64,000 bases of DNA from Bolinopsis microptera. Taxonomy: Eukaryota > Ctenophora > Tentaculata > Lobata > Bolinopsidae. The notes beneath the pieces are model-generated. The model searched no databases and was not told where the DNA came from. It saw nothing but the letters and a program-made list of their open reading frames with translations. Within the stretch, counting starts at the first letter, position 1; each line of letters begins with the position of its first letter. Positions 5,601 through 42,289 of this stretch are shown here, one piece after another. The stretch covers positions 9,947,453-10,011,452 of the forward strand of contig NC_087084.1 of assembly GCF_026151205.1 (NCBI RefSeq), read 5' to 3'. The position numbers and the translations under genes were made by a program.

Positions 5601-8600
5601 ACTTATATTGGTGAGCCCCTCCCCCTTTCCCTCCTCCCCCTTCCCTCCTCCCCCTCCTCTCCCTCCTCCCTCCCTCCCCCACCCCCCCCCCCCTTAATTA
5701 ACACTACTTCTATTTCAGATACCTTTGTCCTATTTCAACAAAGAGAAGGTGTCTGACATTGTAGCTGGAACAACTATGTGTCACGCTGTTACTGTTACAG
5801 GCAGTGTGTACGTGTGGGGAAGTGGCAATGTAGGACAGACAGGTTTACAACCTTAGGGGTCGTTCACATATTACGTTATCACTTTCTGGCCAATTTTTAA
5901 CCCCCTCCCCCCTCCGTAATCAATATTACACATAGCTATTGTGTCAAAGTTACACTAGCGAAATCATTTGGAAACCCCCCTCCCCCCTTGGCTGATTACG
6001 TAATATGTGAACGACCCCTCATTCCCAAAATTTGCGCGACGAAAACTTTGTGCAGCCTTCCCGTCCAAATTTTTCGCATTCAAATTTTTCGTTAATAAAT
6101 TAATTGAATGGCGAATTAGTTTTAATGGCAAATAAACAGGTTTAACAATTAATATTTCGAATAGTTACTGAAAACAGCTCTCTTCAATAAATGATCAGGA
6201 AAATTATGATTTGAAAAATAACAGATTACATTAATAACAATTATTAATATCTATAACTAATAATAGTGATGATATGATATATTTACCGAAGACAATCATA
6301 AAGCACAATACGAATCACATTTCAAAACATACCATCTCATAAAATATAATTTCATTTTTCTGTACGTAAAGGGCAACAGGTTTTCCAACACAAACGTACG
6401 TCGTGCAGCACTGTTACCATGGCAACACTACTGTTACCATGGCAACACTACTTCCTGTACGTAATGCCCTCCAAAAGAGCAACAGGTTGCTCAACACAAA
6501 CATACAGCACTACTGCAGCTAAATACGACATAACCACTATTCCTAGATAAATAACCGCGAACTCAAAGTCAGGCTTCACAAAGAAAGTGTGTCTAGTTTG
6601 GTCCACCAGTATCACGATCAGACCAAAGTGGATGAGGTAGACAGAGTAGGTGAGTCTAGAGAGTACCAGCCACCCTTTCCAGCTGAGGAGTGAGTTGATG
6701 AACCCTCCTAGACCAAACTGACAGAGGAGTACCTGCGTGATCAGAGCCAGAGACCATCCTATCCTCGCTAGCATTTGGTAGGAGATGCTGTCTGTTTTGG
6801 AGGTGGCTTTACCGTGTATAAAGTGGTCCTGTATATCGTGGTAGAGACCGAACACCACCTCATATTCCACAGCAGCAGTTGCTATCCACAGTGGTGTTGC
6901 TATAACAACCTTCTTCCAGACTGGGAGTGTTTTAACCTTCTCCTGGACCTGCTCCCCCCAGCACCAGTAGAACCACCCTCCCAGTATCCCCACCAGGTAG
7001 GGGCTTATCCTAGTCCAGGGTACTCTGTATACCTTGGTGTAGTTTAGAGGGTTCCCGAGTGACATTGAGGGGGCGAGGTTGTAGTGGGCGGTAATAACTG
7101 CCGCTGCAATAGCACTGCAGCTGATAGTTACCGTGGTGACGAGATTGCCGATCAGAGGATAAGCAAATAAGAGGACGATGAATACAGGGGCTATGATGAA
7201 GAACTGCATGTCATTGGCAAGGTACCAACTTTGACCCAGGCAGTTTTGACCTGTTGGATTCCAGGGAACTAGATTATTGATGTAGAGCAGGTTAGTCCAC
7301 CAGTACTGCTTACAAGTAGCGTGGTTGGTACCAACATCTATATCAACTGAGAAGGGTCCTGATACCAGGTGTCTGTACAGAAACCCCTCAAACAATATCA
7401 TCACCAGGTACGGGGTAGTCAGTCGGATGTACCTGTGGACGTAAAAAGCAGTCCACTGTGGTATCGAGAGGAGACCCTTCTTTGTCAACTGTTTTAATAA
7501 AAGGAAGCTCACTAGGAACCCGCTCAAAGTGAAAAATGAATCAACAGAGGAGAAAGCATTAGCAATCAGTGTGAAGCCTCGACTTTGCAGTAGCTTCGCC
7601 AGATCTCCTGGGTCTCCAAGCATACCGCTCAAAAACGCAAAAGTATGTCCGAGGATAACCCAGTTTATACTGAGAACTCTGATGCCGTTGAGACAGAGAA
7701 CTTGTCCTGGTTTTGTTTCGACGGCTGTGAGGGTTTTAAACGTTCGCTGAAGAGCGAAACATTTTATGGCTTTACTTATCATGGATTCAGATTGGATTTG
7801 TGACTGTTCTTTCTCGGATGGTTCCTGTTCTTGAACAAGGTTATCCGTGTCTTCATCATCGTCCATAATTCTGGTATCCTCTCTAACACTCAAGAGGATT
7901 GAGTGCAGAAGGTGCCAGAGTGTTCCAAATACCACAAGAGAACCTACAACTGCTAGGAATGTAATGGCAGCATAAGCTCCGGCATCAAACTCCAAATCCT
8001 CCTCACACGCTACCATCCACTTAGCAGGATCTGCAATCACCTTCCCTTTGGTTGTTTTATTTAACCATGCACTGAGATACGGTAGAGCTGATCCAGCTAA
8101 TTTTCCATCAAGACACTCGTTTGGGAGACACCCAGTCCAAGTCAGTGGTTCCGGGAAAGGCACCCCTCCAATTGATAACGATCCTGTTACTTTACAGCTC
8201 TGGTAATTATTCTTGGTTAAGTTCCTCAGAGAATCACACATTTCGTAGCTCCCGACCCAGATAAGATTGCCTCCTGTCAGTCCTGGACCTGGCTTACCTG
8301 CTGCGTCCAGGAACCCAATACTTTCTTCAGTGATCTTTGTTATGTCCACCAAAGTGTTCAGCTTTTTTAAGCAATCACTGGAGTTTCCTGGGCTGAGTGG
8401 AGGGTGAAAGTTAGAGTTGCTCCCGACATCTGGGACTCCAATAGATTGTAGTAACTGTCCGACTCGAGCTTGAGGTGAAGCTAGCGCTGAGTAAAATAGA
8501 GCAGTGTCTTCACTTGTAGCGGACAGGGTTAGGTAGAGGAGTATAAAGGACAATCGTAAACATCTGCCACGTGACTTCATAACCTTCTGTTCAGGCCTTA

Positions 8601-10457
8601 AAATATTGTGGTTAAATCTCTACACAGTATCGATATTCATTGACAAAACAAATAATCAAATAAATTATAACATTAATTGTAATCAAATTTCCAACAATTA
8701 AGTGATAGCTAATGAATTTTTGTATGTATAATAAATAATTACTATCAAACTGCAGTTTTATAGTAATCAGGAATAAAAAATATATAATTAGAACTGTCTG
8801 TGAAATCAGAAGTGAGAAAAAAAGGAAACGTCCTATTACACCAAGCAGTCTTATCTTTAAAATGTATTAAATCACCAAGTATACACGCCGGTTACCATGG
8901 TTTCATGTGACGCCACAAACTGATACACGTACAGAATATACTACTCAAGTTCAGATTATAAACTGGGAGTGGGTGTATAGTAACCGTGTGGGTGCAATAG
9001 TAACCGTATTACTATCGTGTTGCTGTGCAATCCTGCATTCGCTACAAGGATCATGACCTAACACATATTCTCACCCAGGTCTCCTAGAGGCAAGAAGGAT
9101 CAGGAACTTTGCAACCTAACACATATTCTCACCCAGGTCTCCTAGAGGCAAGAAGGATCAGGAACTTTGCAACCTAACACATATTCTCACCCAGGTCTCC
9201 TAGAGGCAAGAAGGATCAGGAACTTTGCAACCTAACACATATTCTCACCCAGGTCTCCTAGAGGCAAGAAGGATGACCAACCTAACACATATTCTCACCC
9301 AGGTCTCCTAGAGGCAAGAAGGATGACCAACCTAACACATATTCTCACCCAGGTCTCCTAGAGGCAAGAAGGATGACCAACCTAACACATATTCTCACCC
9401 AGGTCTCCTAGAGGCAAGAAGGATGACCAACCTAACACATATTCTCACCCAGGTCTCCTAGAGGCAAGAAGGATCAGGAACCAACCTAACACATATTCTC
9501 ACCCAGGTCTCCTAGAGGCAAGAAGGATCAGGAACCAACCTAACACATATTCTCACCCAGGTCTCCTAGAGGCAAGAAGGATGACCAACCTAACACATAT
9601 TCTCACCCAGGTCTCCTAGAGGCAAGAAGGATGACCAACCTAACACATATTCTCACCCAGGTCTCCTAGAGGCAAGAAGGATGACCAACCTAACACATAT
9701 TCTCACCCAGGTCTCCTAGAGGCAAGAAGGAACCTAACACATATTCTCACCCAGGTCTCCTAGAGGCAAGAAGGAACCTAACACATATTCTCACCCAGGT
9801 CTCCTAGAGGCAAGAAGGATCAGGAACCTAACACATATTCTCACCCAGGTCTCCTGGAGGCAAGAAGGATCAGGAACCTAACACATATTCTCACCCAGGT
9901 CTCCTGGAGGCAAGAAGGATCAGGAACCAACCTAACACATATTCTCACCCAGGTCTCCTAGAGGCAAGAAGGATCAGGAACCAACCTAACACATATTCTC
10001 ACCCAGGTCTCCTAGAGGCAAGAAGGATCAGGAACCAACCTAACACATATTCTCACCCAGGTCTCCTAGAGGCAAGAAGGATCAGGAACCAACCTAACAC
10101 ATATTCTCACCCAGGTCTCCTAGAGGCAAGAAGGATCAGGAACCAACCTAACACATATTCTCACCCAGGTCTCCTGGAGGCAAGAAGGATCAGGAACCAA
10201 CCTAACACATATTCTCACCCAGGTCTCCTGGAGGCAAGAAGGATCAGGAACCAACCTAACACATATTCTCACCCAGGTCTCCTAGAGGCAAGAAGGAACC
10301 TAACACATATTCTCACCCAGGTCTCCTAGAGGCAAGAAGGATCAGGAACTTTGCAACAGAACGTCCCAAGAAAATAGAAGCCCTTCCTAAAGGTCGTGCA
10401 GTTACCGCCATATCCTCCTCAGTTGACCACGTACTGGCTTTGGTGGAAAATGAGTAA
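2610..10457 (+). CDS. RCC1-like beta-propeller protein, 8 exons, with a gene nested in its last intron
   Basis: Exons: 2610-2776, 3062-3153, 3409-3560, 3843-4028, 4437-4587, 5207-5316, 5719-5842, 10321-10457. Every junction is GT-AG and in phase; the sum is 1,119 nt, or 372 aa. RCC1 blade signatures recur: GELWVWGQGGSGQLG, GEIYLWGNN, GRLYSWGRGQYGVLGQG, GEVLTFGKNTDGQLGHG, GFVYTVGNGTLGRLG, GSVYVWGSGNVGQTG, each followed by an HAAAV- or HSYAAA-like strand. RCC1 repeats form a seven-bladed propeller used in GTPase exchange or protein binding; the length resembles RCCD1-type proteins, but orthology is not established. The last exon supplies KGRAVTAISSSVDHVLALVE, completing the final blade across a 4.5 kb intron that holds the minus-strand NRF-6-like gene. 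An additional upstream exon is possible because TTTCAG precedes 2600. Confidence 0.8.
4083..4226. mobile_element. MITE, GGGGTCGTTCACATATTAC family (PIF/Harbinger-like), copy 1
   Basis: The 144-bp element begins GGGGTCGTTCACATATTAC and ends with the inverted form GTATGTGAACGACCCC. It is flanked by TTA on both sides, the 3-bp target duplication usual for PIF/Harbinger elements. It lies in an intron of the RCC1-like gene, just after the exon ending at 4028. Confidence 0.75.
4317..4398. mobile_element. MITE fragment, family with CTGAGGTCCCCAG end
   Basis: Contains GCGCTCAGACTGTCATT and AAGCCTGAGGTCCCAGGTAA, the two ends of a dispersed element seen more completely at 51182-51328 and in pieces at 36987-37183, 43396-43473 and 44975-45030. 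It lies in an intron of the RCC1-like gene about 40 bases before an exon. Confidence 0.6.
5616..5695 (+). repeat. 80-bp homopyrimidine tract before an RCC1 exon
   Basis: Nearly pure C/T (CCCCTCCCCCTTTCC and similar, ending in a run of more than ten C) immediately upstream of the acceptor at 5718. It serves as an exaggerated polypyrimidine tract and could form triplex or G-quadruplex structures on the opposite strand. Confidence 0.7.
5856..6018. mobile_element. MITE, GGGGTCGTTCACATATTAC family, copy 2
   Basis: Same 5' end and inverted 3' end as the 4083 copy, 163 bp, with TTA on the left and TCA on the right. It starts 13 bases after the splice donor of the RCC1 exon ending at 5842, so it sits at the very start of the last intron. 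The target TTA plus the first G of the element creates a TAG that would end the protein if the donor were skipped. Confidence 0.75.
6361..6447 (-). repeat. Imperfect duplication of the 3' end of the NRF-6-like gene
   Basis: Minus-strand reading of 6361-6400 gives YVCVGKPVALYVQK, a diverged copy of YVCVEQPVALLEG at the C terminus of the adjacent gene. Two copies of GTTACCATGGCAAC (6413-6426 and 6433-6446) lie between. The duplication lies past the stop codon and is probably 3' UTR. Confidence 0.6.
6448..8580 (-). CDS. NRF-6-like multi-pass membrane acyltransferase (acyltransferase 3 family)
   Basis: A 710-aa uninterrupted frame. Residues 1-23 form a signal peptide (RLSFILLYLTLSAT). Residues about 65-195 are the extracellular Cys-rich NRF domain (for example TWTGCLPNECLDG). 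A first membrane span follows at about 203-224, then an acidic linker (DDDEDTDN), then the acyltransferase-3 domain from about 295, starting with LNGIRVLSINWVILGHT, the usual entry motif with its conserved His, and running through about ten hydrophobic spans to the end. C. elegans NRF-6 and relatives are membrane proteins implicated in uptake or transfer of lipids and drugs; the substrate of this one is unknown. It is intronless and lies antisense inside the last intron of the RCC1-like gene. The length matches the family and no lesions are seen. Confidence 0.93.
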   Translation of the reverse strand: MKSRGRCLRLSFILLYLTLSATSEDTALFYSALASPQARVGQLLQSIGVPDVGSNSNFHPPLSPGNSSDCLKKLNTLVDITKITEESIGFLDAAGKPGPGLTGGNLIWVGSYEMCDSLRNLTKNNYQSCKVTGSLSIGGVPFPEPLTWTGCLPNECLDGKLAGSALPYLSAWLNKTTKGKVIADPAKWMVACEEDLEFDAGAYAAITFLAVVGSLVVFGTLWHLLHSILLSVREDTRIMDDDEDTDNLVQEQEPSEKEQSQIQSESMISKAIKCFALQRTFKTLTAVETKPGQVLCLNGIRVLSINWVILGHTFAFLSGMLGDPGDLAKLLQSRGFTLIANAFSSVDSFFTLSGFLVSFLLLKQLTKKGLLSIPQWTAFYVHRYIRLTTPYLVMILFEGFLYRHLVSGPFSVDIDVGTNHATCKQYWWTNLLYINNLVPWNPTGQNCLGQSWYLANDMQFFIIAPVFIVLLFAYPLIGNLVTTVTISCSAIAAAVITAHYNLAPSMSLGNPLNYTKVYRVPWTRISPYLVGILGGWFYWCWGEQVQEKVKTLPVWKKVVIATPLWIATAAVEYEVVFGLYHDIQDHFIHGKATSKTDSISYQMLARIGWSLALITQVLLCQFGLGGFINSLLSWKGWLVLSRLTYSVYLIHFGLIVILVDQTRHTFFVKPDFEFAVIYLGIVVMSYLAAVVLYVCVEQPVALLEGITYRK
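8581..9044. other. Intronic AT-rich spacer upstream of the NRF-6-like start
   Basis: No open frame or RNA gene is recognised. It probably includes the minus-strand promoter of the NRF-6-like gene, but no distinct promoter element can be assigned. Confidence 0.4.
9045..10346 (+). repeat. Tandem array spanning the 3' splice site of the last RCC1 exon
   Basis: About 25 copies of a unit of roughly 42-58 bp, each composed of intron tail CCTAACACATATTCTCACCC, AG, then exon head GTCTCCTAGAGGCAAGAAGG plus a variable extension (ATCAGGAACC, ATGACCAA, or up to AACTTTGCAAC). The rightmost copy runs straight into the true exon at 10321. Every unit therefore holds a complete acceptor with its pyrimidine tract and 20-37 nt of exon. 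Unit-length variants occur in blocks, as expected from unequal exchange or slippage. Confidence 0.9.
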
Positions 10458-10605
10458 TCATCCAGGAAAACACGTACTAACTTTGGTGGAAAATGAATAG
10501 TAACCCGGGAAAACATGTACTGGCTTTGATGGAAAATGAATAGTAACCCGGGAAAACATGTACTAGCCTTGGTGGAAAATGAATGTCATACGGGAAAACT
10601 GGGAG
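10427..10605 (+). repeat. Tandem copies of the terminal codons and stop of the RCC1-like gene
   Basis: The coding end (GTACTGGCTTTGGTGGAAAA then TGAGTAA) is followed by three further copies of about 44 bp reading ACGTACTAACTTTGGTGG, ATGTACTGGCTTTGATGG and ATGTACTAGCCTTGGTGG. Each is followed by AAAATGAAT and a spacer TAACCCGGGAAAA or similar. They lie in the presumed 3' UTR. Confidence 0.85.
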
Positions 10606-10727
10606 GTGTTAGTTTTAACATACGATGGAAGATTTCAACGGCGGATTGATTGTTATATTTATACGTAAACACAAACCTCTCAGTCTCCATATCGAAGTAC
10701 AATAAGACTTAATTAGGTTTGTGGAAA

Positions 10728-10843
10728 TACAGTAAAACCTCGATTTACCACAGAGTTGGGGGGGGGGAGGAAACATTCGCGCTAAATCAGGGTTGGTGGT
10801 ACTGGTATTAAATCGGGGCGCGGTTAATCGGGGTTTTACTGTA
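10728..10843. mobile_element. MITE with TACAGTAAAACC ends (Tc1/pogo-like)
   Basis: Begins TACAGTAAAACCTCGATTTA and ends TTAATCGGGGTTTTACTGTA, an inverted pair flanked by TA. This is typical of short non-autonomous Tc1/mariner-pogo elements. There is no coding; an internal run of G is present. Confidence 0.7.
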
Positions 10844-11593
10844 CTAAGAAATACCGAGAGGAAATATCAAATATGTCATAATATGGTGTTATATCTACTC
10901 CTATAGTGTATGGGTTCTCAAAATGCGACATTTAAAATTGGCATGCACATTCTGATTCATTTGGGAGCTTGTTTTCAGTTTGGGAGGTTTGTTTTGATGT
11001 CCACAAAATCTTGTTTATTTCTAACTTTTCTTGAGAATATGTATGTTATCTATAATTTATTATTTGGATATGTTAAACTAAAGACCTTGCTGTTTTTATT
11101 TGTTTGATTTTGAAATCTGAAATTCTTTCTGCAGCTTTACACATAGTCTTATGACTATGAGTCTGCAATAAACATACTAAAGCCTCGCGACGACTGACAT
11201 GCCAGCTATTCGGACATTAACAGGGAATTTCCCAAACTGTCTGCGCCCAGTTTTAGTAAATACGTTAGCACCAGTTCACACATTAGAGCATTAGACATAA
11301 ACTCTCTCTTTTAACCTCGCGGTAAACACACATTATATGTTCACCGGAGGTGTGCTGGTGGGAAATATTAAAGCTTTTCCTTGAATGCACTGTACACAGC
11401 TAGGACCGGCGTAAAATACAAACAATCATTATCGCTGTTTACTTAGCCCTTTGCTGTGGAGAAATTGCGTCTAGCTTTGCAAGTTGTTTGTTTAGTGTCC
11501 AACCTTTGAGCTGTGCAGTGTGCAGGGGTGTTGTTGTCCGGAGTGCAGTTTGTTGAGAGGAGAATTTGTTTTGTTGCTTGATTCTGATTTAGG
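10844..11593. other. Intergenic between RCC1-like and modular genes
   Basis: No gene recognised. It presumably contains the promoter and 5' UTR of the modular gene, whose ATG is at 11594. Confidence 0.4.
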
Positions 11594-14500
11594 ATGTTTC
11601 TGAGGGTTTTTGTTGTTTTATCCGTGGTTCTAGTTCTGGCTTCTGCTCAAGGTTAGTTGTAATCAGTAGGGTTTTATTACTTTTTGTATCATGTTCCATA
11701 TCATGTTACTCTAGCCTAGCCAGCGGCCAGCACAACCTGCCCTCTTTGGTAATAACACAATATTTAACATTGGTTAAGTGAGGTTCAATAATAATAACGA
11801 CCGTTCTTTTCATCAGAAGTAGAAGATGAATCACCGAGGAACTGTTATGATATAATAGACGCAGATAAAGGGAAGATAAGATACAGTGGAACTGTGTCTG
11901 AAACAAAGACTGGTCGTACTTGCCAGAGGTGGGACAGCCAGGAACCACATAGCCACAAGAAATCTCCTGAAAACTTCCCCAATAAAGGTGCGACCATCAC
12001 TGATCACTTCTTCCGAAATAGAAGGAACGCATCAGCCACTTTATTAGGCCTCAACTTTTGGTCTACATAAAGTTCTAATAATTAATTTTAATTCACTGTC
12101 AATAATAATTCAATGATAGCTGTTTCATGGTGTTATCGGTGAATATCATATGAAATGGCAGCTGTTTTAAAAAACCTCATAATAAACCTCTTTGCAGATT
12201 TATCAGACAACTACTGTAGAGATCCTGATAACTACGGTTACCCCTGGTGCTTCACCACGGATCCCAGCAAGAAAAGAGAGAGATGTAACATATCCGACTG
12301 TAGGGAACTGGCGGCTCTACAGGCTGAGGAGATTCCTACAGGTTGGTTTATTAATTAGTGCCTTATACGGTAGTGTTATTATGGTAAAATTGCCTTATGT
12401 GGTAACTCATAATTAACAGATAGGTACAGGTTGGTTGGTTAATTGATATGAAGGCAACCTTGTCATGTGAGAGAGAAAACTACCTAGAATTAGAGGGACC
12501 TTCTTCTTCCATAAGGCTAGTCTCACTAGTGAAGCTTGTTCGTCATAATGCTACAACCTCCCCCCCCCCCCCCCCCCCCGCCACCCCCCATGATCAGAAG
12601 AAGAATACTAATGGAAAATATAACGAAACAGCATGTTATAAAGTTATAACATGACTAACACCCCCCCCCCCCCCTCTCAGATTGTTTCAAGACAAAGCAG
12701 AAAAGTGGTACTAACACATTTGACGTGCTCTATGGAGGAACTGTAGCGGAGACAGCTAGAGGTATCTCCTGTCAGAAGTGGAGTGAGCAGACACCTAACG
12801 AGCATGATAGAACCCCCGACCTCTTCCCTAATACAGGTGATACATTCTTGTCGTAATGATATAGTTGGAGGACTTCGCCGCTTCGACGCGCAAACTATCA
12901 TTCTTACTTCGCATCGCAGATTGTTGCTCTGTTAATTCGCAGAGCAACGATCTGGAAGGGTTGACATCGTCAATCAATGATATGGCTATAGTATATAGGG
13001 TTGCCCAGAAGGAAATGCTCACACGCAACTCCTTCACCATGTAATTCTTGTCAGAATTGTGCAAAAATCTCCGAAATCGTAGCATAGATACGGGTTAAAT
13101 AAATCATAGGTATGGGTTAAATTTAGATTTCTTGAAAATTTCCGTTGCTAATTTCGATCGGATTTTAAGTAGCAATTATTTTTAGCGGCTCATGAAGCTA
13201 TGATAGGGATATTCATGATACTTCAGATAAATTGCCTGTAGGAAAACCCCCATTTTCTAGGTCTAGGGGACCACAACTAATAAAACCCCCTGATTTGCTA
13301 GGTCTAGGGGACCACAACTAATAAAACCCCCTGATTTTCTAGGTCTAGGGGACCACAACTAATAAAACCCCCATTTGCTAGGTCTAGGGGACCACAACTA
13401 ATAAAACCCCCATTTTCTAGGTCTAGGGGACCACAACTAATAAAATCCCTGATTTGCTAGGTCTAGGTGACCACAATTTATAAAACCCCATTTGCTAGGT
13501 CTAGGTGACCACAACTAATAAAACCCCCATTTGCTAGGTCTAGGGGACCACAACTAATAAAACCCCCATTCTCTAGGTCTAGGGGACCACAACTATTGCA
13601 GAGACCCGGACGGTACAGGCTACCCCTGGTGCTACACCACGGAACCTGGTGTTAGGTGGGAGGGGTGCTCCGTTCCTGACTGTGATGGTATGTTATTCAG
13701 CTGATTACGTAATATGTAAACGACCCCAAAGTAAACTAGCGTAATCATTTGGAAACCCCCCTCCTCCCTCGGCTTATTACGTAATAATATGAGAATTGTG
13801 AACGACCCCTTACACTCTTATTTTGTGCCGATTTTTATTAATATCCTGATATCTGGCGTTTAAAACTGATTCAGATAATTTTGTGAACAGTGTAGTGGTT
13901 TTTAGCCGAGATTTCTGAACAGGAGCTATGATGTAAGTATTTTATTTAAAAAATTTTATTTTTCAGATCCCGACCGAAACAGTGAGTACAAATGATTAAC
14001 AACAATTAATTAATTAATTGATTAAGAGTTCACAATTATGGACATTAAAACATTGAATATCTGTGACAAGGAATATGAAAATGTGTAGAGTCTCGAATCG
14101 ATAAGTGAAATTATTTTTACAGGCCAGTAGACCTTGTTCTTTTTCCCCATTTCGCTTTACTCCACGACTTAGATCCCTGGTTGAACTCTACTGGGCCCTT
14201 GCCAGTAAACTTTACACATCCTCTACACTTGCAGTGTTGAGGGGAGGCACCACACCACCCTTTCTTTGAGCAGCACGAGTAATTCTGAAATTTACAAGAT
14301 CTTTACTATCTTACTGTAGATGTGATAGAAATTAGTGTTTAAACTATATCGGTTATGTACTTTTAGGCAATAATGAAAGCCTGCATCAAGTGTCTAACTA
14401 AAACATGAGTAGCATAATAAAACTCCACAAATACTCCTCACTCCTTCTCTAAACGATACCTTGTTGCTGCTCGGATCACACTGAGCTGCCATACCGTTAG

Positions 14501-17500
14501 GTAGTTTGAATACGGGACCACACCGTAGATCCTTCCTCCATAATGCTCTGTAGTCCTTGCAGTCCGGACAGTCACAGTGTTTAGCCAGCTTACCACACCA
14601 ACCTAGCTCACTGCAGCACGACTTCCCTGAGCAGGAGTAGAAGAGGAGAATAAGGGATCATCTTGTGTAATATCCATGTGACGATAAGGGTTTTATGACG
14701 ACCAATATTTACAAGCACTGAGCAATAACATTGATTTAGAAGTCAGAAGTCAACAATTACTGATTTCGGGTTTTTAGTGCAGGTAAAGGTAATATTTAGG
14801 CAAGGTAGCAAGAGCTACCTTGAGCTCTTGAGGATGATGTCTCCCTTAATTCTCTCACTAACACCCTAGAGATCTGATAGATAGCAGCACACCGCATTGT
14901 GCGGAAACAAAAAAGCAGATGAGCTAGCTAAAATGTGAGCTGGCTAAAATACCTTGAGGATGGTAAGGGTCGCATTGTGAGCAGGCTAAAATACCTTGAG
15001 GATGGCAAGGGTCGCATTGTGAGCAGGCTAAAATACCTTGAGGATGGTAAGGGTCGCATTGTGAGCAGGCTAAAATACCTTGAGGATGGCAAGGGTCGCA
15101 TTGTGAGCAGGCTAAAATACCTTGAGGATGGTAAGGGTCGCATTGTGAGCAGGCTAAAATACCTTGAGGATGGCAAGGGTCGCATTGTGAGCAGGCTAAA
15201 ATACCTTGAGGATGGTAAGGGTCGCATTGTGAGCAGGCTAAAATACCTTGAGGATGGCAAGGGTCGCATTGTGAGCAGGCTAAAATACCTTGAGGATGGT
15301 AAGGGTCGCATTGTGAGCAGGCTAAAATACCTTGAGGATGGTAAGGGTCGCATTGTGAGCAGGCTAAAATACCTTGAGGATGGTAAGGGTCGCATTGTGA
15401 GCTGGATAAAATACCTTGAGGATGGTAAGGGTCGCAACTTGCATTGTGAGCTGTATAAAATACCTTGAGGATGGTAAGGGTCGCATTGTGAGCAGGCTAA
15501 AATACCTTGAGGATGGCAAGGGTCGCACTGTGAGCAGGCTAAAATACCTTGAGGATGGTAAGGGTCGCATTGTGAGCAGGCTAAAATACCTTGAGGATGG
15601 CAAGGGTCGTATTGTGAGCAGGCTAAAATACATTGAGGATGGTAAGGGTCGCATTGTGAGCAGGCTAAAATACCTTGAGGATGGTAAGGGTCGCATTGTG
15701 AGCAGGCTAAAATACCTTGAGGATGGTAAGGGTCGCATTGTGAGCAGGCTAAAATACCTTGAGGATGGTAAGGGTCGCATTGTGAGCAGGCTAAAATACC
15801 TTGAGGATGGTAAGGGTCGCATTGTGAGCTGGATAAAATACCTTGAGGATGGTAAGGGTCGCATTGTGAGCTGTATAAAATACCTTGAGGATGGTAAGGC
15901 CAGGGTCGCATTGTGAGCTGGCTAAAATACCTTGAGGATGGTAAGGGTCGCATTTGAGTAGGCTAAAATACCTTGAGGATGGTAAGGGTCGCATTGTGAG
16001 CAGGCTAAAATACCTTGAGGATGGTAAGGGTCGCATTGTGAGCAGGCTAAAATACCTTGAGGATGGTAAGGGTCGCATTGTGAGCAGGCTAAAATACCTT
16101 GAGGATGGTAAGGGTCGCATTGTGAGCAGGCTAAAATACCTTGAGGATGGTAAGGGTCGCATTGTGAGCAGGCTAAAATACCTTGAGGATGGTAAGGGTC
16201 GCATTGTGAGCTGGATAAAATACCTTGAGGATGGTAAGGGTCGCATTGTGAGCTGGCTAAAATACCTTGAGGATGGTAAGGGTCGCATTTGAGTAGGCTA
16301 AAATACCTTGAGGATGGTAAGGGTCGCATTGTGAGCAGGCTAAAATACCTTGAGGATGGTAAGGGTCTCATTGTGAGCAGGCTAAAATACCTTGAGGATG
16401 GTTAGGGTCGCATTGTGAGCAGGCTAAAATACCTTGAGGATGGTAAGGGTCGCATTGTGCAGGGTGACCGTTTGGTAGAGAGTACTCCTCCCCACATCTC
16501 AGATCTCTTCTCCATCTAGCTGTGTAGTCCACACATCTTGCACACTGGGGACAATGTGAATCATTGAAGTACTCTGATAACAAACTACTAAAAACAAGAT
16601 GAAAGCACCAATAAAAGAAGCTCATGACTATTACCTTGCAATGGTTGGCAGTGCCCCCACACCAGCCTTTCTCACTACAGCACGTGTGTCCTCTGGGATG
16701 CAGTGGGTCGCATTCCGCGGGTCTACCGTTAGAGAGCTTGTAGTTCACCCCGCACCTTCCGTCATCCCTCCACCACTGGACTGAGCTGCCACCATCTGAC
16801 ATTTGGTGTTCTCTTAAATCTAAATATCAGTTTTCTTAAACCTACGACAGATCAGTTTTTAAGTCTCACTATGTATAATAATGCGCGTGTACCGCAATTA
16901 AAAATAAACTGTTTTAGCAGGTGTTACATATAAACATATTCATCAAACTTTCTTACCGGATTTGTCTTCCCAAGTCTGCTCACTAATAACACGGCTAACA
17001 AAGGTTTCAAGGACAATAAAACAGAGCAAATATAAGTGTGTCATTGTAGAAAATACACCTGGCCACGTAAAAAGTAAGCTAATCAAGATGGGGGTAAATG
17101 GGAGCTGGAACTATTTCAAAACCTTGGTTAAGTGAAGACTTGCATTATATCCAACATCTATTCAGTATTCAGTAACATGTTGGTTTCAAAAAGTTTATGG
17201 ATACTAATTGCTGTTTCTAAAAACTGTCCAAATGAAATCTGAAACTTATCGTCTATGGCTGTAGCTTCACTAGCTTTCTAGGGCGGATAAAATGTAGTCT
17301 GATACGGTTGGCTAGCGGACCGAATCCCTATTAGACCGAGTAGCCTTTAGGGATTTGGTCTGCTTACTGAAACAGTGAGTCCACCTCCTTCCTCAACCAA
17401 CGTTCTCTTGATAGTTCCTAACTCTTCTCTTCGTAGAGCTTACTGGAACAGTGAGTCCACCTCCTTCCTCAACACTCATTCTCTTGACAGTTCCTAACTC

Positions 17501-20500
17501 TTCTCTTCGTAGAGCTTACTGGAACAGTGAGTCCACCTCCTTCCTCAACACTCATTCTCTTGACAGTTCCTAACTCTTCTCTTCGTAGAGCTTTCTGGAA
17601 CAGTGAGTCCACCTCCTTCCTCAACACTCATTCTCTTGACAGTTCCTAACTCTTCTCTTCGTAGAGCTTTCTGGAACAGTGAGTCCACCTCCTTCCTCAA
17701 CACTCATTCTCTTGACAGTTCCTAACTCTTCTCTTCGTAGAGTGTACGGATCTAGAGACGCTGGACAAGTACGATTTAGGAGAACGCTGGACAAAAGAGG
17801 ACCCCTGTACTTACTGCGAGTGCTTCTCTGACCGTGAGTGATTAACTAATTAATTAACTAAATAATTAACTAATTAAACAAAAGAGGACCCCTGTGATTA
17901 TTAGCCTGCTATTCAAAATAAACCCTGGTTGAACTTAAAACGTATTTACCCATAACTTGTGAAGAAAACGTTATTCTTATGAATCCGGATCGAAAGACTG
18001 GTCTGATATTTTTGATTTGCTTAAGTTGTCTTTAAACGTCCTTTCTCTCACAGGTCTTGTGGACTGTTTCACGATTGAGTGTGATATTATGGAGTGTCCT
18101 GCTGGAGTAACTTATCTTCCCGATCAGTGCTGTCCTGTTTGTAAGTAATTAACTAATTAACCAATTACTAATTAATATTATTAGTATTTAAATACTTAAT
18201 TAATTATTATAGTTGATTAATTAATTACAATATCAGTAGATTTTTTGGTCAAATGCTATGTCAGAATCAAGTTTCACCAAATTTTCATGCCCCCCCCCCC
18301 CTCCTTAAAGACTGTGGTTGCAAATTTAAATCGACGAAATTATTATATTTTTAGACACTTAAAGACATTAAAGACTTTAAATTATTATTTATTAAATTAA
18401 TTAATAATTAATTATTAACCCCCACAACCAGGTGCTGAGCCGTGTATGGACGTGAGGAACGGTTATGTGTACAGTGTTAATGACACCTGGACACCCAATG
18501 CTTGCGAGAGCTGCACCTGCGTGGAAATGGGTGAGCAATTAAGTAATTATTTAACTAATTAACCAATTAACTAATTAACCAGTCAACTAATTGAATAATT
18601 ATCTCTTTTGAGTTAAATCTTTATTAAACTATTGAAAACTGAAAACACACGTCAGCATTTCATATACTTATTAGCCGTTATATTTTACTATCTACAATCA
18701 TCTTCAATCTCAATTGCCTTACACAGCTTACACACATAACTGAAGATACCTATTGTCATGTTCATACCACAAACTCTACAGATGGAGTTAAAAGAGAAAT
18801 GTGTGCAGTGACGGACTGTGCCCCGCTACCTGAAGGGTGTGAGCCTTCCTACACTGAGGGGACCTGCTGCCCGAGCTGTGAGTTAAACTTGTTATGTACT
18901 TACTATTTTAGCTCTGTTCAAACACAAGGATATAATATCCTAATCAGTGAGATGAAATTATAGAATGCTACTCCACCACTATTCACTACCATCTTCAATA
19001 TCAGGCAGTGAAGAGTGCAGAGATGATGAATCTCTGGAGTATTACAATGTGGGAGATAAGTGGAACCCTAACCCTTGTACTATGTGCGAGTGTCTGGAAG
19101 AGAGTGAGTTTAACATTTACAACGTTCCTTAGTAACGTTCCTTAGTAACGTTTCTTAGCAACGTTCCTTAGTAACGTTCCTTAGTAACGTTCCTTAGTAA
19201 CGTTCCTTAGTAACGTTCCTTAGTAACGTTCCTTAGTAACGATCCTTAGCGACATTCCTTAGCAACGTTATCAAACCCTTCAGCTGATGTTAAACTTGAA
19301 GCGCTTGTGAATGGTAACTTTGAAGTTTTAGATAAAATTATAAACTTCTGCTTATAATGGTTGTTTATCTTCTGGAATAAGCACAGTCAAATAAATGTAG
19401 ATTTGGATTTTTTTAATGTTAACTTATTAACTAATTAACTAATTAAAGACGGTCCCCTAAAATGATTTACCACCGGTTTAAAATGATCTAATATTTACAA
19501 GCATTGACAAATTGTACAATTAAGGTATTTACAATAATTAGTATTTACAATGACTGCTGACTCAACTCCCTGTTGTTACCAGACAGTCAGAAGCGAGAAC
19601 TGTGTGCTCAATACTACTGTGAACTGCCTACCCACTGTTACAATGTTACCTACTCTGAGGACCAGTGCTGCCCCTTCTGTGAGTTATCTTTATCTAATCT
19701 CTTCTATCTTCGGGGGGGGGGGGGGGGGGGGTGGGGGGGGCGGTGGGGGGCCAATGTCCCTTTTGTGAGTTACTATATATCTCCTATCTTTATCTCTTCT
19801 ATCTTTTCTTTTCTATCTATTGTGAGATTATTAACCTCATGAGATATTAATTCATGAAACGTTACTATACAGTTACTATGCACGATGGTGTATCCACCTG
19901 GTAAACATGACTATTATGTTATTAATCAGGAGTTTTACAATTTACATCCTCGGATATTTTATTTTAAAACAATAATTTCATTATAATCCATTTCAGGCGG
20001 AGAGTCACCATATAACGGTAAATATAATGTATAGTTTATATATTATATAATGTATACAATATAATGTATAGTTTGTTTTCAAAATGTATAGTTTGTTTTC
20101 AAAAAATGTTTAATCGTACTTTTTCAACCTCTTGATAGGAAAAGCAAATTACTTAAAACTAACTAAGCTCCCCCCTATCAGAGTGTTTCGACATGACAGC
20201 GAACAACACTATTCTATATGACGGAGAATTAGCCGTTACAAAGTCCGGGAACGAGTGTCAGTTCTGGACATCTCAGCTCCCCAATATCCACACCCGGACT
20301 CCGGAAAACTTTCCTGACGTGAGAACAATTTACTGGCTGAGAACAGGCTTTGAAGTTTATTTTTAAAATGTATCTCCCTTTTACTAAATCAAGCAGATAA
20401 TTTCTTGTAAATATACTGAGATCAAACTATCAATTTACTGGCTGTCGTCAAACATGTTGCAAGGCGTCATCTACAGTTCCGTACAGACTCAACTCTGCAC

Positions 20501-23500
20501 CCGTGTCAATATGTTCATTATATGCAAGCCTCTTGATTTATAAGCCTCTAATTATTTGTTTTATAATGTTCTAGACTTCTAGTGTTTTAGTGTCGAAAGT
20601 ATTAAAACTTGATTTATCAAACTTGATCGTATTTGTTGAAGAAGTTTTAGAAAACAAACAACATGAGGTTTAGTTGTGAGTCATGCTTTTTTATAGTGAC
20701 TCAAATATTCAGCAATCGCGTGCTAGTTACTTAGTAACCAATGATGACATCCCAGGCGTTGCTAGGATTCCACAACTTCTGTAGAGATCCCGACAATTCA
20801 GGTTACCTGTGGTGTTATGTTAATAACGAGGATACCAGATGGGAAAAGTGTGATGTGCCCTCTTGTAGACTACTAGGTAAGTGTGATGTGCCCTCTTGTA
20901 GACTACTAGGTAAGACCTGGCAGCTCTATTGTTTTAAAAAGATGTGAATTTAAAACTTTATAAGACTCAGATGTTATTGTTGACCAAGTGAATTTACAAT
21001 TAAACGTTTACAGTTAACTCCGATAACTGGGTGATGGAAGACGCGGTGATGAAATCAGCAGTTATTTGTCAAGACACTATCGGTAGAGTAGAGGTAAATG
21101 ACGCTATCTATAATTCACCTAAGTTCCTTTTCCACGATTGTTGTTACTGGCCTCTTCTTTCACGTGATATCAAATTTGTAATTACCTACTTTCTCTACCC
21201 ACTCTTGTTACCCTTAACGTGATACCAATAGAGTGAAACGTTCACCCTTAACGTGATACCAATAGAGTGAAACGTTCACCCTTAACGTCATACCAATAGA
21301 GTGAAACGTTCACCCTTAACGTGATACCAATAGAGTGAAACGTTCACCCTTAACGTCATACCAATAGAGTGAAACGTTCACCCTTAACGTGATACCAATA
21401 GAGTGAAACGTTCACCCTTAACGTGATACCAATAGAGTGAAACGTTCACCCTTAACGTCATACCAATAGAGTGGAACGTTCACCCTTAACGTCATACCAA
21501 TAGAGTGAAACGTTCACCCTTAACGTGATACCAATAGAGTGAAACGTTCACCCTTAACGTGATACCAATAGAGTGAAACGTTCACCCTTAACGTGATACC
21601 AATAGAGTGAAACGTTCACCCTTAACGTCATACCAATAGAGTGAAACGTTCACCCTTCACGTCATACCAATAGAGTGAAACTTTCACCCTTAACGTCATA
21701 CCAATAGAGTGAAACGTTCACCATTAACGTCATACCAATAGAGTGAAACGTTCACCCTTAACGTCATACCAATAGAGTGAAACGTTCACCCTTAACGTCA
21801 TACCAATAGAGTGAAACGTTCACCCTTAACGTCATACCAATAGAGTGAAACGTTCACCCTTAACGTCATACCAATAGAGTGAAACGTTCACCCTTAACGT
21901 CATACCAATAGAGTGAAACGTTCACCCTTAACGTCATACCAATAGAGTGAAACGTTCACCCTTAACGTGATACCAATAGAGTGAAACGTTCACCCTTAAC
22001 GTCATACCAATAGAGTGAAACGTTCACCCTTAACGTCATACCAATAGAGTGAAACGTTCACCCTTAACGTCATACCAATAGAGTGAAACGTTCACCCTTA
22101 ACGTCATACCAATAGAGTAAAACGTAAAGTGTTTAAACTGAAGGAGTTTGACCGCTCGTGCTGTTTAGTTGTTATTCCTTTATAAAGGGTACACTACGGC
22201 ATTTTTTGCTCAACAAATTACGATTTGGTTGCCAATAAAATGTAATCGGACTCACTGCACCTTTTATTTTAATTTATCGATTGTTTGCAAATAAAATGTT
22301 TGCAAGTGTTTGAAAATATCACAAACCAGATAAGCTGGTTTCAGTTTACCATCTTTACCATAAACACCGTGAACATCAGGCTTCAAATGAAACAAAGTAC
22401 ACTTATCACTCAACTGGTTTTATGTTTCGCCACAAACCGGTTTAGTAGTTTTCAACACTCACTACCACCGGCTGCTGCCAAGTAAAATAAACTCTCATGA
22501 TATGAGATATCTTAACCAAGTACGTTATGTCGCTGTTCAGTGTTCATTTATCACTCAACTGCTTTTATGTTTCGCCACAAACCGGTTTGGTAGGTTCCAA
22601 CTCTCACTACCGTACAATAAGGTCTTATGATATGAGATATCTTAACCACGTTCGTTACGTCGCTGTTCAGTGTTCACTTATTATATCACTCAACCGGTTT
22701 GGTAGGTTCCAACTCTCACTACCGTACAATAAGGTCTTATGATATGAGATATCTTAACCACGTACGTTACCTCGCTGTTCAGTGTTCATCACAAATGGCA
22801 TGAACAGGTTGCAACCAATTCTATTGCAACTAAAAATCAACAACTTGAGAGCAGTTTGTTGACTCAACAAGTTCTTGAGATATGATTTGTTTATATAGCT
22901 ATAAGAGTAACTATAATACACTATAAAAGTAACATAATATTTATCATGTTTCGCTATAATTGTGAGTGGGTCAGTCTCCCGTCCGTCAGTCCGTCCCCAA
23001 CAAGTAAACACAAATAATGTTTTATCTTCTCAACAGTGCGACAGTGATAAGCGGATAGTAGTGCTGGAAGCGAACTACGGCGCTACTGGGACCCAGGGTT
23101 GCTTCGAGTACTCCAACTCCAGCTTCTGTAACTCTACAGTTCAGACATCAGGTTAGTACTCCAACTCCAGCTTCTGTAACTCTACTGTTCAGACATCAGG
23201 TTAGTACTCCAACTCCAGCTTCTGTAACTCTACTGTTCAGACATCAGGTTAGTACTCCAACTCCAGCTTCTGTAACTCTACTGTTCAGACATCAGGTTAG
23301 TACTCCAACTCCAGCTTCTGTAACTCTACTGTTCAGACATCAGGTTAGTACTCCAACTCCAGCTTCTGTAACTCTACTGTTCAAACATCAGGTTAGTACT
23401 CCAACTCCAGCTTCTGTAACTCTACTGTTCAGACATCAGGTTAGTACTCCAACTCCAGCTTCTGTAACTCTACTGTTCAGACATCAGGTTAGTACTCCAA

Positions 23501-26500
23501 CTCCAGCTTCTGTAACTCTACTGTTCAGACATCAGGTTAGTACTCCAACACCAGCTTCTGTAACTCTACTGTTCAAACATCAGGTTTGGGTCCTAATATA
23601 TTCTCTCTAGGAGAAGATATGGAGAATTGGAGAAGTTGAAGATGGGGTGCTTGAAAGATTCGTTATTTTACCTTTTCTAAGATTTGATACTCCCATTGAT
23701 GAACAGATAAACATAGTTACAACTAATTACAACGCTACGAATCTATTACATTTATTGAGTACTATGTAACGTGATGGAAATATTTTAAACGGGTAATATC
23801 CTGTGCAAACCCAGGATACATAACATGAATACTTTGTTGTAACTTTGTATGAAAAGCATTAATAGGAACCAATGAAACATCCCACAGAATCAACAAAAGA
23901 GAAGTGTGATGGTAAAAGTTACTGTGACTTATCTGTCTCAGTTGACAACTACGAATCTTCATGTGACACCGAGGAGAAATATTTGAACATTAGCTACTAC
24001 TGTAAACCTGGTGAGCTTAGTGGTACTTCGTTACCATGACAACTACTTAGTATTACGTAATCTTTTCTTTTCTATGTCTCTTTCCGTTCTTATCATTTCT
24101 TTCTTGTCCTTTTTTTCATATCTATTTTTCTTTTGAGACACCAAATATCATGCAATAGATGCCTACTGATCATAAAATTAACTTAAGATCTACCTAATAT
24201 CATACCTTACTGAGACTCACCTTGGGCAATGAAGATTATTCTAAACTGTCGCTGATAAAAGTATACAGATAAAATTTCGTTGTATTTTTAACGTTTCGCA
24301 CTCTCGCAGATATTCCATGCTACAAGAAAGCAAACGGGTTCGCTCTCTACAACGGCTCTCGGTCAGAGACAAAGTCAGGGAGAGAGTGTATGAGGTGGAA
24401 CCAACAGAGACCACATGGTCACGACTTTACTCCTGATGTATCAGAGTATGCCGAGAGAGGTATGTACAATGTATAATATACCCGGACAGACTAATATTTA
24501 AAAACCTCAGGAGTTGGAGAACACAACTACTGCAGAGACCCGGACAGACTAATATTTAAAAACCCCAGGAGTTGGAGAACACAACTACTGTAGAGACCCA
24601 GAGAGACTAATATTTTAAAAGCTCAGGAGTTGGAGAACACAACTACTGCAGAGACCCGGACAGACTAATATTTAAAAACCCCAGGAGTTGGAGAACACAA
24701 CTACTGTAGAGACCCAGAGAGACTAATAATTAAAAACCCCAGGAGTTGGAGAACACAACTACTGCAGAGACCCGGACAGACTAATATTTAAAAACCCCAG
24801 GAGTTGGAGAACACAACTACTTTAGAGACCCAGAGAGACTAATATTTAAAAACCCCAGGAGTTGGAGAACACAACTACTGCAGAGAACCGGACAGACTAA
24901 TATTTAAAAACCCCAGGAGTTGGAGAACACAACTACTTTAGAGACCCAGAGAGACTAATATTTAAAAACCCCAGGAGTTGGAGAACACAACTACTTTAGA
25001 GACCCAGAGAGACTAATATTTAAAAACCCCAGGAGTTGGAGAACACAACTACTGCAGAGAACCGGACAGACTAATATTTAAAAACCCCAGGAGTTGGAGA
25101 ACACAACTACTTTAGAGACCCAGAGAGACTAATATTTAAAAACCCCAGGAGTTGGAGAACACAACTACTTTAGAGACCCAGAGAGACTAATATTTAAAAA
25201 CCCCAGGAGTTGGAGAACACAACTACTTTAGAGACCCAGAGAGACTAATATTTAAAAACCCCAGGAGTTGGAGAACACAACTACTGCAGAGACCCGGACA
25301 GACTAATATTTAAAAACCCCAGGAGTTGGAGAACACAACTACTTTAGAGACCCAGAGAGACTAATATTTAAAAACCCCAGGAGTTGGAGAACACAACTAC
25401 TTTAGAGACCCAGAGAGACTAATATTTAAAAACCCCAGGAGTTGGAGAACACAACTACTGCAGGGACCCAGACAGACTAATATTTAAAAACCTCAGGAGT
25501 TGGAGAACACAACTACTGTAGAGACCCGGACAGGGAAGGGAAGCCCTGGTGCTATACCATGGATCCGGAGAGGAGGTGGGAGTTTTGTGGTGTCCCAGAG
25601 TGTGAAGGTATGTTTTATCCAATGCGAAAGAAACTCTCGCGCAATAATTTGGTTTGCTAACTCCTCTCTTACACTTGATGGTCACATGTTGGTCACCTTA
25701 TCCAACTATGTTTTATACTTAATAAGTTAATGATCACATATTCCCCTTAATTTGCGACTTCGTTCAACGCCGCGCGCAAATTTTGAAATGTTGTGTTTTC
25801 TCTCCACAGCTCTTCTTCACAGCTCTGTTATCATACTGTTCATCTACAGGGTTTACTGAAGAACGCCCCATGGTAATGGCAAGTAAAGCTTCAAACATTA
25901 TCAGACTTATAGGGGACGCTAAGAACATTGACTGCCAGTATGTTAAAGATGGAGACGACAGAGTTACTTATATTGGTAATTAAATTAATTGCCTACTTAC
26001 TTTGGTTACTTTTCAGAGTAACTTATATTAGGAACTAAATTAATTACCTACTTACTTTGGTTACTTTTCAGAGTTACTCATATTTGTAATAGAATTAATA
26101 ACTTAGAGATGTTTAGTGTTCGAACCGTTGTATTGGGTGTCTCATTAAACGTTAATTCTCATGTTTATAGCTGCAATCAGGGCCCGATGTAAAGGCTATG
26201 ACTGGACATTTGGTGTTTCGGTGTTTATTGATTTACAAATTGTGATGCTGATCTCAGTTGTGACTGATTTTTCTATGGTCCTTTTTATTTATGTTAATCT
26301 TGACTGCAGGTCAGACTAACGTAACAGCAAGTGGTAGAACCTGTCAGAGATGGAGTGAGACCACACCACACTTCCACACTAAGATGCCTGAAAGGTTAGT
26401 CACCAAGTAGTTGTCATGGTAACGAAGTAGTAAGATAGTAATAAGTAGCAAGATATTGCTATTTATAGCTGAAAGGTAAGGGTCCACATTTGAAATTCAC

Positions 26501-28965
26501 CGCATATGCTGGGGTTGGTACTGAATGTTCGTCGTGGTGCCCAGTGTAGTTGTAACTTTGTAATTGTTGTCATGGTAACACCGGGCCATTATATTCTTAT
26601 GAGGGGTCGCACTATTTAAAAATGTAACAAAAAATGTTTTTAGTTAAAACTTAAACCTTGATTCATCCATAAAGTCACGAAGTAATAAAATGGAGCTATT
26701 GAATTGAACTAATTAACTAATTAAATAATTAACTAATTAACTAATCAACTAATTAACTAATTAACTAATTAACTAATTAATTATAATGGTGGCCTAGTGG
26801 TTAGAGCTTCCGCCTTCTGTACAGAAGGTTCAGGGTTCGAATCCCAGTGTCACTCAGTCTAGGGAGTAGCTAAGGATTCATCGGATCTATGCGATCTCCT
26901 CGGTCGACTCAGCCGAATGATAGGAAACTTGATTGAGGGTTAAATGAGGAGGGGGGCCTGTGCCAAAAAGATCAAGAATCTTAGGATACTCCTTCAGAAC
27001 ATCTACAATGTAGTATAGTGTACTGTAAAATAAGGGCGGTCGAAATATTCGATGACCCTGTAGAGGAATCTACGAACTTTACAAATTATACAAATTTATT
27101 ATCATGTTGTCAGGTATCCGGATGCAGGTCTCGGAGAGCACAACTTCTGTAGGGACCCTGACGGTAACGGCAAACTCTGGTGCTACACTATGGACCCTCA
27201 GAAACGGTAGCTAATCCTACTTTTTAGTTGTTAACATGTACTTTATAGTAGTTACTTTATAGTAGTTAACATTTTATAATTCATCACTCAACAGAGTTTT
27301 TTCCCCGTTACAAGGACATTTTTGAAACGATGAATATTTTGCTGGGATATGTGACCAACGTTCACTTCAAATTAGAGACATCTGAAAATGGTGTGTCCCA
27401 TTATCCCATAAACCCTTCACTCGAACTAGCTGTTCGGATTCAAAACTGTAATGGTATTTCTAAACAGGTTCGAGTACTGCGAGATTCCCAAATGTACAGA
27501 AGAGGAAGTGGAACAGATGGGACTCTGTACAGATGTAGACTGCGGAGTGGGGGGAGACTGCTACATTAACAAGTTAGTAGGGGGGGGGGGCTGCTATATT
27601 AACAAGTTAGTGGGGGGGCTGCTATATTAACAAGTTAGTGGGAGGGGGGACTGCTACATTAACAAGTTAGTGGGGGGGGGGCGACTGCTATATTAAATTT
27701 AACAAGTTAGTGGGGGGAGTTAGTTTATCTTATAAAGTTGTAATTATGAGTCTAGAGAATAAAGAAGATTTCACAGAGAAACAAAACATTTTTGGTTCGT
27801 AAAAATATCTATAATATACACCATTCCTGTGTGCCCACATAAAACTGAAATTAAGTTTCAAACGATACTCAAATACTCGTGGCGGGTACACTAAACCCAC
27901 TTGTCCCCCCTCTTGTAGAAGTGCCCCTCAAAGAGTGACTCACCCCCCTGACTGGTCACTAATACAGTATCAGAGAACCCGACTGCTCCTTTTCCTGGTA
28001 ACTGTATCCAGGGTATGAGATGAATAGTCATGTTTTCCTGGAACAGTTCCTCTGAAGTAGGGTGGATGAAGAACTGAGAGTTGCTCCAGTCAGTGTAGAA
28101 CCCTATCCCTATAGAGTAGCCCGCTCGCTCCGACTGCTTGTGAGGGTAGGGGTAGTGAGATATAATGTCTCTCATAGCTGCATCTACTTCTTTAGCTGCT
28201 ACCCCTGGTTTCATCATCTGCCGCCCCACACTCACTGCCTTCCTGATCAGCTTCTCAGCTGCAGTGAACCACTCCGGAACTTCATCTCCCACATAAACAC
28301 TGTACATTCTGGCTGCATGGTACCTCTTAAAGCAACCTCCTATCTCAAAGAACACAATGTCATGTTCCTGCACCAGCATCTGAGTGGGAGTGTAATGGCC
28401 CATACAGCCAGTCTCCCCGCTGCACAAGAAGACAGGGTACGCCGTGTACTCACACCCCTCTCTACACATCTTCTCCAACACCTTCCCTCCCACTTCCGTC
28501 TCCATCATACCTGCACACACCGTCCCAATACCGGCCTGGAGACCCGCGTGCACTATTCCCGCTGCTCGCTTTACATTGGAGATCTCTAGTGGGGATTTTA
28601 CTAGTCTCAGTCTGGATACCTGGAGGGAGATGTCGGAGAAAGTGGCGCGCGGGAAGATCTTCAGCAGTTCTTTCTGGAGTTGGTTGACCTGGTTGTAAGC
28701 GAGTCTAGTTGTGTTGAACTCAAGTCCGATTATAGTAGCAGTGTCACTACCGTACCTGCCTTTAACTGTACTGGCAATAATGTCTATAGGGTCCTGGGAC
28801 TCGTCGTAGAACGAGTAAGCCACGTGAGATCGCATCTCAGCGTTCGTAGCCTCCAGTTCCCTTGTGACGATGTGGATGTCGTCCTGTGTCACCAGCAGCA
28901 CCTATTTAGAAAAGTTTAGATTAAGTGCTATTAAAGTACCATTAAAGTACCATTAGAATACCATT

Positions 28966-42282: not shown

Positions 42283-42289
42283 GTATGTG

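Follow-up and report, generated by a model that had tools for sequence, protein, structure and literature searches.

The stretch of DNA analysed in this study (hereafter the window) is 64,000 nucleotides long and comes from the ctenophore Bolinopsis microptera (contig NC_087084.1, positions 9,947,453 to 10,011,452, forward strand). The window contains an RCC1-like gene, plus-strand exons of kringle and lectin type, and a chitin-recognition-like gene encoded by the minus strand. These genes carry minisatellite arrays whose repeat units cross exon–intron borders. The arrays were located by Tandem Repeats Finder (TRF). Junctions were placed by eye and with a home-made gene finder, which was trained on window exons and over-predicts exons, and a Pfam profile search on ten window peptides was used for border support.

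Junction-spanning arrays in the window

Between 1 and 28 kb of the window, a region chosen for its arrays, 11 of the 14 arrays with a unit of at least 25 bp spanned a junction, compared with 2.1 expected under random placement. An earlier reading of the same DNA (the original prediction) had described eight arrays crossing exon–intron borders, four with the acceptor and four with the donor, on both strands. TRF found each of the eight with ends within approximately 31 bp of those described, and the division into acceptor and donor arrays and the presence on both strands were confirmed. At the array that it had placed at 17356, approximately 2 nt of exon per unit had been claimed, and 2 nt were read. 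The arrays at 5295–5458, 10428–10599, and 25959–26099, all of them donor arrays, were absent from its list. The arrays and related features are shown in Table 1.

Table 1. Tandem arrays of the window and the exon enclosed by two of them.
Feature	Unit and copies	Position	Strand	Remarks
Donor-spanning array	55 bp x 3	5295-5458	+	RCC1-like gene; unit exonic 22, intronic 33; TRF and eye
Acceptor-spanning array	54 bp x 25	9056-10349	+	TRF; unit length differs among copies
Exon between acceptor array and donor array		10321-10453	+	weak RCC1 match, E = 0.089, below cut-off
Donor-spanning array	43 bp x 4	10428-10599	+	TRF, eye, gene finder
Acceptor-spanning array	39 bp x 9	13243-13595	+	kringle gene, exon 13583-13687; TRF, Pfam
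Donor-spanning array	42 bp x 36	14934-16459	-	chitin-recognition-like gene; next copy open, in frame
Acceptor-spanning array	76 bp x 5	17362-17742	+	2 nt exon per unit; exon 17741-17833
Donor-spanning duplication	33 bp x 2.1	20846-20914	+	kringle exon; open, in frame
Array taken as purely intronic (comparison)	34 bp x 27	21210-22125	+	TRF; without supported exon inside
Repeat taken as purely intronic (comparison)	112 bp x 1.9	22580-22788	+	TRF; without supported exon inside
Donor-spanning array	48 bp x 10	23107-23586	+	SUEL-lectin intron; read-through into next copy hits stop
Acceptor-spanning array	58 bp x 18	24480-25527	+	kringle exon 25497-25607; TRF, Pfam
Donor-spanning array	55 bp x 2.6	25959-26099	+	GT lost in second copy; TRF, eye
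Donor-spanning array	32 bp x 4.7	27549-27720	+	TRF end 27696, by eye ~27720; donor by eye alone
Wholly exonic array	60 bp x ~67	55831-59885	-	NACHT-WD40-type gene copy (domains named by eye)

The Pfam search showed that the kringle exons at 13585–13686, 25499–25606, and 20756–20875 align to positions 47/48–79 of the Pfam kringle profile, the exon of the 13243 array matching positions 48–79. A kringle exon at 12200 and an RCC1 exon at 3843 (E = 1.3e-16) were also supported. The two SUEL-lectin exons flanking the 23107 array matched profile positions 3–37 and 44–80 of 80, both below the Pfam cut-off. Matches below the cut-off were also obtained for the exon at 17743 (fn1) and for the repeat exon neighbouring the minus-strand array (Chitin_bind_1, PF00187).

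The exon start at 10321 is the acceptor of the last copy of the 9056 array, and this copy was read as the productive one. The 24 additional copies with a site had a median of 11.0 bits, equal to the productive-site score. The intronic part of the unit was 17 bp in the 10428 array and 8 bp in the 27549 array. An acceptor array and a donor array flank the exon at 10321–10453 on opposite sides, and the same arrangement was found at a second locus (L083:686–831).

Elsewhere in the window, positions 6448–8580 of the minus strand hold an intronless open reading frame of 710 residues, which by eye we take to be an NRF-6-like acyltransferase; it is perhaps nested inside an intron of the RCC1-like gene. 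A 23-bp array with approximately 101 units lies at 39367–41715, and a second short array with an identical unit at 42287–42390.

Junction arrays in an independent sample of loci

To sample the genome, 98 gene stretches around Pfam matches were fetched; they were selected before repeats were searched for. Anchoring relied on 39 of 154 kringle matches, most of them partial hits in short frames, together with 71 of 73 matches to myosin, 106 of 109 to kinesin, and 62 of 67 to dynein AAA_6. With these Pfam anchors, the gene finder returned 222 + 63 supported exons, which have 564 junctions. The median intron was 181 bp (85 introns joining adjacent supported exons, first 83 loci).

The automatic rule called 17 of 83 arrays spanning in the first 83 loci (unit of at least 20 bp), and the 15 dynein loci added four calls. 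These 21 calls were read one by one; five proved wrong or doubtful and were set aside (L020:6318, L026:316, L037:291, L093:3770, L096:251) and 16 were kept (L020, L029, L032 twice, L035, L036, L037, L038, L039, L047, L063, L082, L083 twice, L085, and L087). The kept arrays sit on seven contigs, at kringle, kinesin, myosin, and dynein loci, and represent 16 of the 564 sampled junctions of homology-supported exons.

The comparison with random placement was run on 80 loci (249,330 bases), 18 of the 98 having been removed as near-duplicates. Each array was collapsed to one unit, which was placed randomly in the same stretch, and placements fully within a supported exon were excluded. Six thresholds were tried, and the P values are uncorrected. 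For units of at least 25 bp, 14 of 60 arrays spanned a junction and 7.2 were expected (P = 0.007); the five calls set aside count here as non-spanning, and including them gives 18 of 60. At least 20 bp gave 14/84 against 7.9 (P = 0.018), and at least 30 bp gave 14/50 against 6.8 (P = 0.003). With a minimum copy number added, the counts were 10/37 against 4.0 (unit of at least 25 bp, at least 2.5 copies, P = 0.003), 10/32 against 3.6 (at least 30 bp, at least 3 copies, P = 0.0015), and 8/20 against 1.8 (at least 25 bp, at least 5 copies, P = 0.00016). Arrays with fewer than 2.5 copies showed no excess (4 of 23, approximately 3.3 expected, by subtraction). For units of at least 30 bp, 13 of 47 arrays compared with 4.3 expected under an uncollapsed null and with 5.9 under the collapsed null, which is fairer and is used throughout. 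The spanning count is conservative, because arrays scored as non-spanning may cross exons without a domain match.

These results show that the junction excess is real: approximately two-fold in general, up to four-fold in long arrays, and none in low-copy arrays. The claim in the original prediction that junction-spanning arrays are far more common than random placement would give thus stands for the window; elsewhere the overlap does exceed expectation, by two- to four-fold, except in low-copy arrays. The rise of the excess with copy number, if it holds, rests on small numbers. A direct comparison of copy number between 14 spanning and 42 other arrays, with four set-aside calls of at least 25 bp in neither group, was borderline (Mann–Whitney P = 0.08; Fisher 0.051). 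Spanning arrays were longer (median 614 bp vs 148 bp, P = 0.01). They also had longer units (51 bp vs 35 bp, P = 0.03) and a higher G+C content (0.43 vs 0.37, P = 0.06), both of which may act as confounders.

Three further observations were made in the sample. At L036, two adjacent 35-bp arrays (2797–3477 and 3475–4138) have units that are nearly reverse complements of each other and form a large potential hairpin. Ten loci (L062, L069–L071, L073, L075, L076, L078–L080) on six contigs carry kringle exons with flanks 77–99% identical, which constitute a dispersed kringle-bearing family. The kinesin copies L031 and L046 are 97–99.8% identical, and one of their introns differs by approximately 930 bp holding tandem arrays. 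In addition, a glutamate-receptor piece of 201 residues (L099) had its highest score against a structure from Mnemiopsis, and the long open reading frame had its highest score against kainate-2 receptors.

Unit anatomy, reading frame, and turnover

The anatomy of the units was compared in 26 independent arrays, 11 from the window and 15 from the sample; L083:480 was omitted as a paralogue of L082. There were 16 donor and 10 acceptor arrays, so both 5′ and 3′ borders are affected. Exonic sequence accounted for 2–82 bp of the unit and intronic sequence for 2–180 bp. The unit breakpoints are therefore scattered about the junction. The sequence AG/GT across the junction was not significantly enriched at array acceptors (5/10 vs 71/273 elsewhere, P = 0.14) or at array donors (7/16 vs 135/269, P = 0.80). 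The statement of the original prediction that AG/GT lies at the joint in most cases was thus not borne out. Duplication seeded at AG/GT, which it had proposed, is unsupported because the breakpoints are scattered, AG/GT is not enriched, and low-copy arrays show no excess. AG/GT seeding or recursive splicing as the driver of the arrays was rejected, given the lack of significant AG/GT enrichment.

An intronic part of at least 20 nt was retained in 9 of 10 units of acceptor arrays and in 6 of 16 units of donor arrays (Fisher test selected post hoc, 0.014). The same difference gave P = 0.09 in a Mann–Whitney test, and under a uniform offset P was 0.11 for the acceptors and 0.07 for the donors' deficit. 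A filter that requires the splice site of the productive copy to stay complete would fit this pattern, with weak support.

In 20 of 27 array rows, the median site score of the further copies was within 0.5 bits of that of the productive copy. It was lower in three rows (the window arrays at 13243 and 20846, and L032:5717) and higher in one (L085). The remaining three had no scored further copy: the window array at 25959, and those at 10428 and 27549, where the scanned junction was one base off and is uninformative. L029 has 51 further donors at 8.9 bits, and L036 has 24 at 9.3 bits.

The frame test, which uses the consensus unit although copy length varies in some arrays, showed that adding one unit would cause a frameshift in 18 of 26 arrays and introduce a stop in five (window 13243 and 23107, L029, L035, L085). 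The frame stayed open in three (window 9056, 14934, and 20846). Because the neighbouring copy gives a frameshift or stop in 23 of 26 arrays, the exon-proximal copy alone should be productive in most of these genes. For the same reason, neutrality on the ground that any copy can splice, an explanation offered in the original prediction, does not hold. Unit lengths modulo 3 (0/1/2) were distributed 8/13/5, with no skew to zero (P = 0.15, 26 arrays), and the copies therefore do not look as if they were kept as protein. Selection for in-frame units was rejected on this ground.

A genome search with the units of the 23107 and 24480 arrays, two of the 11 window units, matched only their own loci; a missing match in such a search does not prove rarity. 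Introners or repeats carried by transposons would have one unit scattered over many loci. Copies within arrays matched one another at 84–100% (TRF). The kringle exons L082 and L083, which are paralogues and not haplotypes, share one acceptor unit, of which L082 has at least 12.5 copies and L083 has 4.0. Array-free paralogues were sought for the exons of the 14934 and 24480 arrays, and the next-best matches, both at other places in the window, were 64% and 66% identical.

The 60-bp array on the minus strand lies wholly within an exon and has a paralogue on another contig (L101), which is 96% and 88% identical on the two sides of the array. L101 has one copy of the 60-bp unit, in an open frame (1,289 residues; 1,007 within L101). 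The window copy shows two frame changes relative to L101, outside the array, and may be a pseudogene. The one-copy paralogue and the two frame changes together indicate that the array arose from an exonic segment, in a gene copy apparently free of constraint. GTAAGT occurs in all 45 of the approximately 67 units that were detected by an exact anchor; the ACTAACCAG counted in these units belongs to the anchor itself.

Origin of the arrays and comparison with known systems

We consider it probable that the arrays are 'mirage'-type minisatellites: tandem duplications of local origin that persist because they leave the exon-proximal splice site intact. A short segment that chances to straddle a junction would be duplicated in tandem by ordinary local DNA repair or slippage. 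The single-locus units (two searched) and the array-free paralogue of one exonic array back a local duplication, whereas the enzymology is our suggestion. The duplicated unit would then be expanded and homogenised, a process to which the match between copies and the copy-number difference between paralogues point. The gene would survive because the exon-proximal copy, the first of a donor array and the last of an acceptor array, is a complete splice site beside an intact exon. The remaining copies would become intron, judging from the reading frames. Exon definition, in which the closest acceptor–donor pair across the exon is favoured, would be the likeliest cause of the copy choice. Selection would purge wholly exonic arrays except in genes that can vary freely, of which the NACHT-WD40-type copy is perhaps one.

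Several points weigh against this explanation. Pure tolerance predicts no junction excess, yet an excess was found both among all arrays with units of at least 25 bp (14/60 vs 7.2) and among those with at least five copies (8/20 vs 1.8). The excess at high copy number would need a bias in expansion or retention besides tolerance. At L037, the productive acceptor comes last in a series of up to 26 sites of equal strength, a choice that scanning for the first AG would not make, and the acceptor unit at L047 retains just 9 nt of intron. The splice-site filter is weakly supported by the tests given above. The copy used in each gene is itself predicted from reading frames.

Splice junctions may instead be mutational hot spots, at which DNA damage linked to transcription or splicing (e.g., R-loops or exon-end pausing) favours duplication or expansion. 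We regard this as possible, without favouring it. The excess is larger at five or more copies than among all arrays with units of at least 25 bp, and the greater length of the spanning arrays also fits. Against it, low-copy arrays show no excess, the breakpoints are scattered and not at AG/GT, the copy-number difference is borderline, and the longer units and higher G+C content of spanning arrays may confound it. Returning to mirage-type arrays, a bolder form of that explanation is that expansion in ctenophores, as in amphioxus, is preferentially coupled to splice junctions genome-wide: duplications would arise evenly, and the ones with an intact splice site would be much more successful in expanding or persisting. 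This appears rather doubtful to us. If it were true, an array would be present at approximately 3 per cent of junctions, and thus in a sizeable proportion of genes, and tandem-repeat expansion would be driven in part by splicing or by the co-transcriptional chromatin of exon edges.

It is unlikely that the arrays are functional, with their many equivalent sites regulating or buffering how the adjoining exon is spliced. Site strength is maintained in the further copies of most rows, and the intron kept in 9 of 10 acceptor units leaves room for a branch point and an acceptor. Homogenisation accounts for the equal strength, however, and the acceptor figure is significant neither against a uniform offset nor in the rank test. 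In 23 of 26 arrays, splicing at the next copy would cause a frameshift or a stop, and copy number differs between the two kringle paralogues.

We think it equally improbable that the arrays are steps of intron gain by tandem duplication (the Rogers model), in which exonic AG/GT copies become new introns. The GTAAGT in the anchored units of the 60-bp array and the existence of an array-free paralogue are in line with this model, which was also proposed for the amphioxus arrays in the accessible text of PMC3087553. At the junction arrays, however, the intron pre-exists. The model calls for an array holding both intron ends, whereas each sampled spanning array reaches one junction only, and the gene copy with the exonic array may be a pseudogene. 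An assembly or annotation artefact, with collapsed or inflated arrays or miscalled exon borders, is very improbable. In its favour, the gene models come from a home-made finder, and five of the 21 calls made by the automatic rule were set aside. Against it, PacBio libraries and Hi-C formed part of the published genome project (PMC10232365, accessible text), the borders lie at consensus AG/GT and several at Pfam profile breaks, and independent loci show similar arrays.

Overall, the junction arrays are real, extend beyond the window, and are of an already described kind. New here are the phylum, the rate, and the way in which the excess depends on copy number. Those arrays that hold dozens of equal splice sites provide a natural test of how the cell chooses a site. 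If the excess does grow with copy number, the question of what lets minisatellites expand becomes measurable in one genome.

The human 6-16 (IFI6) minisatellite multiplies a splice donor in a single human gene. Minisatellites with units averaging 30 bp have been described in human segmental-duplication genes (PMC2812944, accessible text); some lie at exon–intron boundaries, alter gene structure, and vary between paralogues. That account gives 27 intron modifications in recent duplicates, some of them new introns, whereas the arrays here also occur in kinesin, myosin, and dynein genes. In the accessible account of the Rogers-type intron gain in potato RdRp, a duplicated segment likewise crosses an intron–exon border and takes its splice signals from the parental junction. 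There, one duplication led to a new intron; here, the copies are numerous and nothing points to a new intron. The dual-specific splice sites of tandem-repeat genes such as UBC and VCX3A (PMC10809524, accessible text) resemble the present case in having repeat units with splice motifs, and bear on the exonic 60-bp array. In repeats of that type, a single AGGT acts as both donor and acceptor, and the intron length is a multiple of the unit length.

For ctenophores, no paper on splice-site minisatellites was found among the matches listed by a literature search, which left out most subscription papers. The word minisatellite is absent from the accessible text of two ctenophore genome papers, one of them PMC11797021, and that of the Hormiphora paper gives 13% tandem repeats without a remark on splice-site minisatellites. 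Iso-Seq and RNA-seq data exist for B. microptera, according to the accessible text of PMC10232365.

The original prediction knew of no described genome-wide system of this kind but allowed for one; the human boundary repeats and, above all, the amphioxus 'mirages' show that such repeats had been described. In the accessible text of PMC3087553 and PMC3902484, mirages are minisatellite-like duplications of 5′ and 3′ intron–exon boundaries with units of 10–160 bp, many containing AG/GT. They occur in Adh3, globin, TnC, and PGBD5, reportedly leave regular splicing undisturbed, and show length and somatic instability at Adh3. As described there, they belong to single cephalochordate genes, with haplotype length variation and reverse transcription PCR (RT-PCR) shown, whereas the present arrays belong to a ctenophore, were found across a sample of homology-supported junctions, and are known from DNA. 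The likeness is that the unit spans the exon–intron boundary (11 window and 15 independent arrays), that both borders are affected, and that AG/GT is kept in many copies. The mirage phenomenon, known from a few amphioxus genes, would thus gain a second phylum, and a very distant one, with 16 of 564 sampled junctions as its first rate.

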